A stretch of DNA of 64,000 bases, from the NCBI GenBank assembly GCA_029978335.1, contig JAPOJQ010000001.1:62001-126000 (forward strand). The letters run 5' to 3'. Position 1 is the stretch's first letter, and the number at the start of each line of letters is the position of its first letter. This document shows, piece after piece, positions 23,579-30,046 of this stretch. Position numbers and translations under genes: made by a program. This DNA comes from Actinomycetota bacterium. GTDB taxonomy: Bacteria; Actinomycetota; Acidimicrobiia; Acidimicrobiales; Ilumatobacteraceae. The notes beneath the pieces were generated by a model. That model was given only the letters and a program-made list of their open reading frames with translations. It searched no databases and was not told where the DNA came from.

Positions 23579-26659
<3,081 letters not shown>

Positions 26660-26696: not shown

Positions 26697-28460
26697 TCAC
26701 AACTGTGAGCGGTGCTCCTGTTGTGATGGGTGCACGAGCACCTGATCGTTGGTACATCCCGCCGGAATCATCGGGAACACCTTCTCATCCGAGTCGGTTC
26801 GGAATTCGATCACGACGGTCAGATCGTTAATCGAGTTCGCCAAATCGATCGCTGGTTGCACTTCTTCCGGACTCTCAACGCGGATCCCGACGCACCCCAT
26901 CGACTCCGCCCACTTCACGTAGTCGGGCGTATCAGTTGAGAGGTACACCTCTGAATAACGCTCGTCGTAGAACATCTCCTGCCATTGCCGGACCATGCCG
27001 AGATAGGAGTTGTTCAACAGCGCGATCTTGATCGGAATGCGCTCCACCGTTGCCGTCACGAGTTCTTGGGCGGTCATCTGGAAACAGCCGTCACCGTCAA
27101 CTGCCCACACCGTGGCATCGGGCCGGCCCATCTTGGCGCCGATCGCTGCGGGAATCGAGAAGCCCATCGTGCCGAGACCACCCGAGTTCACCCAGGTGTA
27201 CGGGTGGTTGAAACGCCAGTGGAGCGATGCCCACATCTGGTGCTGACCGACGCCTGACACGACGATGGTGTCTTCGGGTGATGAGTCGCGAAGTCGCTCA
27301 AGACAGAACTGCGGCTTCAGCGCTGCGCCCGGCTCGGCCGGGTCGTAGGTCAACGGGAAGATTTCCTGCCAACCAGACACTCGGCTCTTCCACTCGGAGA
27401 TGTCAGCCTGGGCAACGCCAGACGCCAAGAGATCACGGATCTCGCGGATGATGTCCTCGGTGACCAGTCGACAGTCGCCAACGATCGGCACATCAGGCCG
27501 GCGAACCTTGCCCTGTTCGGCGGGGTCGATATCGACATGGATCACTTTCGCGTCAGGGGCGAAGCCATCAACCTTGCCGGTGATTCGATCATCGAAACGG
27601 GCACCAAGGGTGATGAGCAGATCAGAACGCTGCATCGCGGTCGTGGCCGCGATCGTGCCGTGCATACCGGGCATTCCGAGGTTGAGTTCGTGGTCATCAG
27701 GGAACACACCACGCGCCATCAGCGTGGTGACGACGTTGATACCCGTGAGTTCGGCGAGTTCACGCAATGCTTCAGCGGCGCGAGCCTTCAACATGCCGCC
27801 GCCCACGTACAGGATCGGACGCTCAGCAGCCAGAATCATCTGCGCAGCTTCTTTGATCATCCGAGGATGACCCTTTGTATTCGGCCGATAGCCCGGCAGC
27901 GAGGCGCGGACCTCCTCATCGGTCGGCCAGTGCCACGTCATCTCGTTCTGTAGGACGTCCTTGGGGAGGTCGAGCAGCACCGGTCCGGGTCGGCCGGTGG
28001 TAGCGATGTGGAATGCCTGCCGCACCGCCATCGGAATGTCGTCTGCGGACATGACGAGTTCGTTGTGCTTGGTGCATGACCGGGTGATGCCGACCGTGTC
28101 GCACTCTTGGAATGCGTCGGATCCGATGGCGCCGGTGCCCACCTGACCGGTAATCCCAATCATGGGAATCGAGTCCATGTAGGCGTCCATCAGCGGCGTC
28201 ACCAGATTGGTGGCCGCAGGACCGGAGGTGACCATGGCAACGCCAGGACGGCCGGTCACATGGGCGTAACCCTCTGCCATGTGCCCTGCGCCCTGCTCGT
28301 GACGAACCAGCACGTGGCGAATCGACGATTCGAGCAGCGGGTCATAGGCGGGGAGAATGCAGCCGCCGGGCAGGCCGAAAATCGTGTCGACCTGCTCCAT
28401 TTCGAGCGCCCGGATGAGCGCTTGGGCCCCGGTAATCCGTTCGGGTTGATTGGTACTCAT
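26697..28460 (-). CDS. ilvB: Acetolactate synthase large subunit
   Basis: [34 protein letters not shown]...[15 protein letters not shown] 28458-28460 with AGGAG SD. Confidence 0.96.
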
Positions 28461-28498
28461 GTCGTCTCCTGGAACAGGGGGAGGTGAGGGGTGGGCTG

Positions 28499-28531
28499 AA
28501 AAACGGAACGACCTCCCGTGAAGGGAGGTCG
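28499..28531 (-). terminator. Intrinsic terminator/attenuator in the ilvB leader
   Basis: Minus strand CGACCTCCC-TTCAC-GGGAGGTCG (perfect 9-bp stem) then TTCCG and TTTTT, upstream of ilvB and downstream of the leader peptide. Confidence 0.75.
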
Positions 28532-28545
28532 GAGCGCACGCAGAG

Positions 28546-28564
28546 ATCCGGCGCGCTACCGGAT
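28546..28564 (-). promoter_or_regulatory. Pause-type hairpin overlapping the end of the leader peptide
   Basis: Minus strand ATCCGG-TAGCGCG-CCGGAT: perfect 6-bp stem covering the last leader codons (ATC CGG TAG). Confidence 0.5.
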
Positions 28565-28606
28565 GACTACTACAAGGTCGAGGACCAAAGTCGTTGCGAC
28601 GTGCAT
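28556..28606 (-). CDS. ilvB leader peptide [16 protein letters not shown] (16 aa)
   Basis: ATG CAC GTC GCA ACG ACT TTG GTC CTC GAC CTT GTA GTA GTC ATC CGG TAG; 9 of 15 non-initiator residues are Val/Leu/Ile; followed by hairpins and ilvBNC. Confidence 0.8.
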
Positions 28607-28678
28607 CGCCCGAGAGTCTGCCACCAGAAACGCTGCAACGCAAACGCACGTGTGCTGTATTTGTTATGTCAATGTGAT

Positions 28679-30046
28679 ATGAATCAACCGATGCCCTCTC
28701 CCCTAGCGTCGTCCAACGTGACGCAGCCCAACGTGTTCCCACCCGCTCCCGCTGAGGGTCGCCTCGGCATCCTCACCGTCGGCCTCGGTGCTGTCGCCTC
28801 CACGCTCATCGCAGGTGTTGAGCTGGCAAAGGCCGGCATCGCCGCACCAATTGGTGCGCTCACTCAGATGGGCACCATCCGTCTCGGACGGCGCACCGAG
28901 GATCGCAACCCCCTCATTCGTGACTTCGTACCTCTCGCCTCGCTTGACGATCTCGTCTTTGGCGCGTGGGACCCGTTCCCCGACGACGCCTACGTCGCCG
29001 CTCAGCGCGCCGGTGTGCTCGAAGCCGGACGCCATCTGGAGGCCGTTTCCGATGCGCTGCGCTCCGTCCAGCCGATGAAAGCTGCGTTTGACCGTGAGTA
29101 CGTCAAGCGACTCGACGGCGAGCACACGATTGGCACCGTGTCCAAGCGAGCAATGCTCGAATCAATTCGCACCGACATCAATTCCTTCCGCGAGAAGCAC
29201 AACCTCGAGCGCGTCGTGATGATCTGGGCTGCTTCCACCGAGATCTTCATCGAGCCGGGCCCCGCACATGCCTCGATCGAGGCGTTTGAGGCCGCGATCG
29301 ATGCCAACGACCCGACCATCGCGCCCTCGATGCTCTACGCCTACGCCGCAATTCTCGAAGGCGTGCCGTTCGCCAACGGCGCACCAAACCTCACCGTGGA
29401 TATCCCTGCGCTTCGGGAACTCGCCGTCGAGAAGGGCGTGCCCATCTCGGGCAAAGACTTCAAGACCGGCCAGACCCTCATCAAGACCGTCATCGGACCG
29501 ATGCTTCGCGCTCGCATGCTCGGCCTGAACGGCTGGTACTCGACCAACATCCTTGGCAATCGTGACGGTGAAGTGCTCGACGACCCGGACAACTTCAAGA
29601 CCAAGGAAGAATCCAAGCTCGGTGTGCTGGAGCACATCTTGGAGCCCGACCGTTTCCCCGAGTTGTACGGCGACGTCTACCACAAGGTGCGGATCAACTA
29701 TTACCCACCGCGCGGCGACAACAAAGAGGGCTGGGACAACATCGACCTGTTCGGCTGGCTCGGTTATCCGATGCAGTTGAAGATCGACTTCTTGTGCCGT
29801 GACTCGATCCTCGCAGCACCGTTGGCGCTCGACCTCGTGCTCTTCTCCGACTTGGCACACCGCGCCGGCCTCGGCGGCATTCAGGAATGGCTGAGCTTCT
29901 ACTACAAGGCGCCGATGGTGGCTCCTGGGCTCTACCCGGAGCACGACCTCTTCATCCAGCTCACCAAGTTGAAGAACACGCTTCGATGGATGATGGGCGA
30001 GGAACAGATCACCCACCTCGGCCGCGAGTACTACGACGAGACCTGA
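28679..30046 (+). CDS. ino1: myo-Inositol-3-phosphate synthase
   Basis: [25 protein letters not shown]...[46 protein letters not shown]. Start may instead be ATG 28691. Confidence 0.94.

Follow-up and report, generated by a model that had tools for sequence, protein, structure and literature searches.

A probable branched-chain amino acid attenuator upstream of ilvBNC in Acidimicrobiia, with matching leaders before cimA and leuA

The window analysed here is a 64,000-nt stretch of contig JAPOJQ010000001.1 from a member of the Ilumatobacteraceae (class Acidimicrobiia). On its minus strand lie ilvB, ilvN and ilvC (Table 1), and the identification of ilvBNC in a preliminary description of this DNA was confirmed with NCBIfam models. 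A short open reading frame (ORF) is situated between ilvB, which begins at 28460, and a divergent inositol-phosphate-synthase-like gene, which begins at 28679 on the plus strand. The divergent gene (28679-30046) gave a weak NCBIfam match as an inositol-3-phosphate synthase, with 26 bits as compared to a cut-off of 638, and no obvious Shine-Dalgarno site was seen before it. As claimed previously, the short ORF comprises 16 codons, and nine of its 15 non-initiator residues are Val, Leu or Ile. Downstream of the run of sensor codons are two stem-loops (i.e. P1 and P2) and a U-rich tract.

Table 1. Features of the ilvBNC upstream region and of the related leaders in the same genome
Feature	Position	Strand	Basis	Locus
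-35-like TTGCGT, 17 nt before the -10-like hexamer	28638..28643	minus	comparison of leaders	
-10-like CAGACT, ending 8 nt before the leader ATG	28615..28620	minus	comparison of leaders	
Leader ORF, 16 codons (ATG 28606-28604 to TAG 28558-28556)	28556..28606	minus	ORF reading and homologs	
Sensor codons CTT GTA GTA GTC ATC (Leu-Val-Val-Val-Ile)	28562..28576	minus	positional conservation in homologs, GTA bias	
Alternative hairpin ATCCGGT/GCCGGAT, 7 bp counting a G-U pair	28546..28564	minus	folding	
P1 stem-loop, 5' edge in the leader stop codon, candidate antiterminator	28533..28557	minus	folding, covariation	
P2 terminator-like stem CGACCTCCC-TTCAC-GGGAGGTCG, perfect 9 bp, 1 nt after P1	28509..28531	minus	sequence, covariation	
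Bipartite U-rich tract TTCCGTTTTT	28499..28508	minus	sequence, homologs	
AGGAG, Shine-Dalgarno site of ilvB	28466..28470	minus	sequence	
ilvB, acetolactate synthase large subunit, putative regulated gene	26697..28460	minus	NF005860 and TIGR00118 above cut-off	
ilvN, acetolactate synthase small subunit	26099..26659	minus	NCBIfam	
ilvC, ketol-acid reductoisomerase, start codon provisional	25063..26100	minus	NCBIfam	
Ile-run leader MTSTSRHIIIIP with P1 and terminator, before cimA	C79:129561-129651	minus	R1, E 3.3e-8	L138
Leu-run leader MTELRTLLLLT (GTG start) with P1 and terminator, before leuA	C79:142449-142541	plus	R1, E 0.024	L139

The leader ORF was assessed by shuffling and by comparison with homologs. 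Among 4000 dinucleotide shuffles of the intergenic region, five contained an ORF with a comparable branched-chain amino acid run and none combined such an ORF with a 9-bp hairpin and a T-rich tail. Far stronger evidence for the leader than these shuffle statistics is its conservation throughout the class. Searches for IlvB, run on 61 genomes and on the GTDB contig collection, placed the window with Ilumatobacteraceae-like Acidimicrobiia; among the ilvB upstream regions recovered from Acidimicrobiia, the leader was present in 73 (70 distinct), and the arrangement of leader, P1 and P2 was kept in 70 distinct regions. A covariance model (i.e. R1) built from 51 of the upstream regions matched in 139 of 151 family genomes (74 of the 76 of good quality) and exhibited scattered matches elsewhere in the phylum, where 58 of 247 sampled genomes were positive. 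Ile, Leu or Val occupied positions -6 to -2 from the stop codon in 77-96% of homologs and the flanking positions in 25-27%, the leaders terminating in runs such as LVVVI, LVVLI or LVVVT. GTA accounted for 69% of Val codons in the last eight leader positions, the corresponding share being 3.8% in long ORFs of the window and 3.4% in ilvB genes. The ilvB leader is real.

The sequences preceding 120 leaders were compared for promoter elements. A NANNNT hexamer ended 6-9 nt upstream of the leader start with a sharp peak (18, 33, 28 and 14 of the 120 leaders at distances of 6, 7, 8 and 9 nt, respectively, and nine or fewer at other distances), and TTG[ACG] was found at the -35 position in 84. A strict sigma-70 consensus scan of the region returned no promoter and missed the -35-like element, the -10-like element having been found by the comparison. 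The position of the CAGACT hexamer predicts a transcription start at or adjoining the leader ATG. Motifs resembling a Shine-Dalgarno site preceded 12 of the 120 leaders as compared to 49 of 62 ilvB genes. Given the placement of the -10-like hexamer 6-9 nt before the start and the scarcity of Shine-Dalgarno sites, the leader mRNA is probably leaderless. The weak Shine-Dalgarno site of the leader ORF, raised in the preliminary description as a caveat, would be accounted for by the probable absence of a 5' untranslated region.

A perfect 9-bp stem followed by TTTTT had been reported and was found as P2 and the run at 28503-28499. The separation of this run from the stem by 5 nt, previously regarded as a caveat, was likewise verified and counts against the attenuator reading; a split tract is nonetheless a conserved feature, kept by relatives in the form UUU-NN-UUUUU. 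P1 exhibited a median energy of -18 kcal/mol across homologs. Its 5' edge coincided with base 2 or 3 of the stop codon in 54 of 70 ilvB homologs, and the linker between P1 and P2 measured 0-4 nt in 69 of the 70. Covariation was examined in 89 distinct sequences using an alignment that was fitted to the structure, so that the following counts lean towards it: standard pairs in 92.6% of pair cells, with 98.7% of P2 cells paired; two-sided changes at 15 of 17 pairs overall and at all eight pairs of P1; and 126 cells changed on both sides as compared to 31 in shuffles. The covariation score was 0.304, and structures slid along the alignment scored 0.056 or less. Both P1 and P2 covary.

The last leader codons had also been placed in a 6-bp hairpin (ATCCGG...CCGGAT). 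This hairpin is present, and extends to 7 bp when a G-U pair is counted, but the conserved hairpin is P1 instead, which overlaps its 3' half. Folding indicated that the two compete and that the ATCCGGT/GCCGGAT form prevails in the window only without a ribosome. It was rejected as the key element because counterparts of at least 5 bp were found in 16 of 70 homologs, mainly those of the window's genus.

Within the genome of the window, R1 had three leader-type matches, upstream of ilvB, cimA and leuA. The cimA gene encodes citramalate synthase (TIGR00977 above cut-off) and is preceded by an Ile-run leader; leuA, encoding 2-isopropylmalate synthase, is preceded by a Leu-run leader. In relatives, Ile-run leaders were present at 22 of 30 cimA loci examined and Leu-run leaders at 29 of 30 leuA loci examined; in nearly all of these a hairpin began in or just past the stop codon. 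Every cimA element had a linker of 0-5 nt between P1 and P2, as did 28 of 29 leuA elements. No such leader was found in the upstream regions of trpE and hisD in the window's genome. A joint covariance model for ilvB, cimA and leuA was dropped because the leuA P1 pairs in a different register. As the sensor codons match the pathway that the downstream gene serves, these leaders provide the strongest available evidence for sensing of charged tRNA, and the occurrence of the cimA and leuA leaders in the same genome is decisive support for reading the ilvB leader as an attenuator. Ribosome-mediated attenuation of ilvBNC, as proposed in the preliminary description, is strongly supported by conservation, by covariation of P1 and P2, by selection for GTA and by the cimA and leuA leaders. 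We put the probability that the ilvBNC leader is a branched-chain amino acid attenuator at roughly 0.9; with the mechanism included, this remains the best explanation as a whole and is held with only slightly less assurance.

Leader translation, ribosome stalling and termination would, we infer, be coupled as follows. Transcription would begin at the leader ATG or adjoining it, and the 16 codons would be translated by a ribosome on a leaderless transcript. If charged Leu, Val or Ile tRNA were short, the ribosome would stall on CTT-GTA-GTA-GTC-ATC, its front edge then lying close to the stop codon; by the standard footprint, a ribosome stalled with the first GTA in the A site has its front edge ~3 nt before the stop. 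P1, beginning in the stop codon, would then be free to fold, and its flush position (1 nt) against P2 would impede the full closure of P2 within the exit channel of RNA polymerase, permitting read-through into ilvB. With plentiful amino acids, the ribosome would reach the stop codon, where the standard footprint covers ~10 nt beyond the stop, and would occupy the 5' arm of P1. With P1 blocked, P2 would close and transcription would end at the U-tract. It is the footprint relative to the stop codon that would make P1 foldable during stalling and block it once translation finishes. That P1 acts as a flush antiterminator hindering P2 is given an even chance.

Partition functions were calculated for 72 homologs in three ribosome states. 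The mean probability of P2 was 0.94 for free RNA, 0.96 with a stalled ribosome and 0.98 with a ribosome at the stop codon, and P1 and P2 co-folded in every state. State-specific calculations gave no mutually exclusive antiterminator in any of the 72 homologs, in keeping with the earlier statement that no clear antiterminator could be identified. As P2 is near 1 in all ribosome states, thermodynamics alone predicts no switch, and any action of P1 must be kinetic or steric. A similar folding calculation was applied as a control to ilvB leaders of Actinomycetes, and the stalled state of the mycobacterial leaders consisted of a long hairpin, a linker of 0 nt and an intact P2. The presence of a flush hairpin and intact P2 in Mycobacterium means that the missing exclusive antiterminator is no argument against function. 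The same co-folding in mycobacteria related to M. tuberculosis, whose ilvB1 leader has been tested experimentally, suggests that the flush position of P1 at the polymerase exit channel is what hinders P2. The 'textbook architecture' claimed previously was therefore not quite right, since the element has a stop-codon hairpin flush with the terminator, as in mycobacterial ilvB leaders.

Alternative roles for the hairpins were weighed against this steric mechanism. The stability of P1, its start at the stop codon and its end just before P2 are also consistent with a transcription pause hairpin that keeps ribosome and polymerase in step, the switch then lying in the coupling itself, and the C. glutamicum model assigns pausing to the upper portion of its first hairpin (PMC11857589). 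Pausing by itself, however, gives no account of how a stalled ribosome prevents P2, and this explanation was considered rather unlikely. A classical trp-type attenuator, in which an unrecognised exclusive antiterminator pairs with an arm of P2, was judged unlikely. An outward extension of P1 (CGG:CCG) in members of the window's genus overlaps the base of P2 by 2 bp, with basal competition of 0.10 in the stalled state and 0 with a ribosome at the stop codon. The C. glutamicum model similarly has one boundary trinucleotide (i.e. GCC) common to antiterminator and terminator (PMC11857589), whereas the shared 2 bp are absent in most relatives. Moreover, in a pseudoknot-free calculation for the 72 homologs, the 5' arm of P2 paired upstream with a mean probability of 0.03, and P2 itself was maintained in all states as described above. 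A ligand-binding riboswitch or T-box before ilvB would fit a structured 5' region conserved before a biosynthetic operon and the enrichment of a CATA loop motif in P1, but is highly improbable: an Rfam search of the region gave no match to a T-box, ppGpp or other riboswitch, or to any other family, at the gathering score or even at E <= 10, and the reading frame is conserved with amino acid codons matched to three pathways. Short ORFs are common, but a chance small ORF beside an ordinary terminator is refuted by the shuffles, the conservation in family genomes and the codon-level selection, leaving it a negligible probability.

The attenuators of E. coli ilvB, ilvGMEDA, leu and trp have a codon-matched leader peptide and an intrinsic terminator, as found here; they differ in that their antiterminator and terminator exclude each other and their leader carries a Shine-Dalgarno site. 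The exclusion by base pairing of the classical trp/his type was not found in this element, in which P1 and P2 coexist. In the window, an ORF with a Leu/Val/Ile run lies upstream of ilvB, an intrinsic terminator is predicted from sequence and covariation between the leader and ilvB, and a hairpin adjoining the terminator follows the sensor codons; the element very probably belongs among actinobacterial ilvB leader attenuators. The M. tuberculosis ilvB1NC attenuator (PMC13236596) likewise has a branched-chain amino acid leader with LVVI, GUA sensors and an intrinsic terminator before ilvBNC. Changing LVVI to AAAA in the ilvB1 leader abolished induction, and disruption of the terminator gave the expected effect (PMC13236596). 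In the mycobacterial leaders examined the ORF runs past the sensors and itself supplies the 5' arm of the hairpin, whereas in Acidimicrobiia the ORF stops 1-2 codons beyond the sensors, and it is at the stop codon that P1 starts. The C. glutamicum ilvBNC leader (ilvB-II motif; PMC11857589, PMC10272879) is near-leaderless, with a start site 1 nt from the start codon, and shares with the present element LVVV, GUA control codons, three hairpins and an antiterminator adjoining the terminator; it differs in that the window's element has no Rfam match. GUA has been named as the control codon for both M. tuberculosis (PMC13236596) and C. glutamicum (PMC11857589). Seliverstov et al. 2005 (PMC1262725) predicted ilvB leaders in Corynebacterium, Mycobacterium and Streptomyces, with a short I/V/L ORF and a terminator as here; Acidimicrobiia are absent from that study, in which leuA has a LEU pseudoknot element, unlike the Leu-run leader with P1 and P2 of the present genome. 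For the S. coelicolor ilvB leader, replacing possible regulatory codons had no effect according to work cited in PMC1262725, which counts against attenuation.

The open-licence literature searched contained no leader-peptide attenuator from Acidimicrobiia and no cimA leader. Within the literature covered, what is new is the distribution across the class Acidimicrobiia, the putative Ile attenuator of cimA, the putative Leu-run leuA attenuator of the same anatomy and the geometry of a stop-codon hairpin flush with the terminator. On the present reading, ilvB attenuation, for which mycobacteria and corynebacteria provide experimental support, would extend to the class Acidimicrobiia, and cimA would join the targets with a sensor made purely of isoleucine codons. 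As the codon run can be predicted from the downstream gene, the set of leaders amounts to a natural codon-swap experiment, and with more than 100 natural variants of one design it can be tested whether antitermination needs shared base pairs. Tentatively, and at somewhat below even odds, the three operons may form a matched regulon (ilvBNC with Leu/Val/Ile, cimA with Ile and leuA with Leu) in which P1, gated by the ribosome at the stop codon, sterically blocks the terminator by its flush position and shares no base pairs with it, the same principle applying to ilvB attenuation across Actinobacteria.

Two minor features of the hairpins were observed. CATA, often as CACATA, occurred in 21 of 110 distinct P1 apical loops as compared to two expected by shuffling; such loops were found among the ilvB, leuA and cimA P1 hairpins (e.g. 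loci L022, L213 and L189), and the P1 loop of the window lacks the motif. The 5' arm of P2 carries CCTCCC (28522-28531, minus strand), which is near-invariant across the class and resembles an anti-Shine-Dalgarno sequence. CCTCCC persists while the 3' arm, through G-U pairing, drifts to GGGGGG, and the 5' arm thus seems to be constrained beyond pairing.
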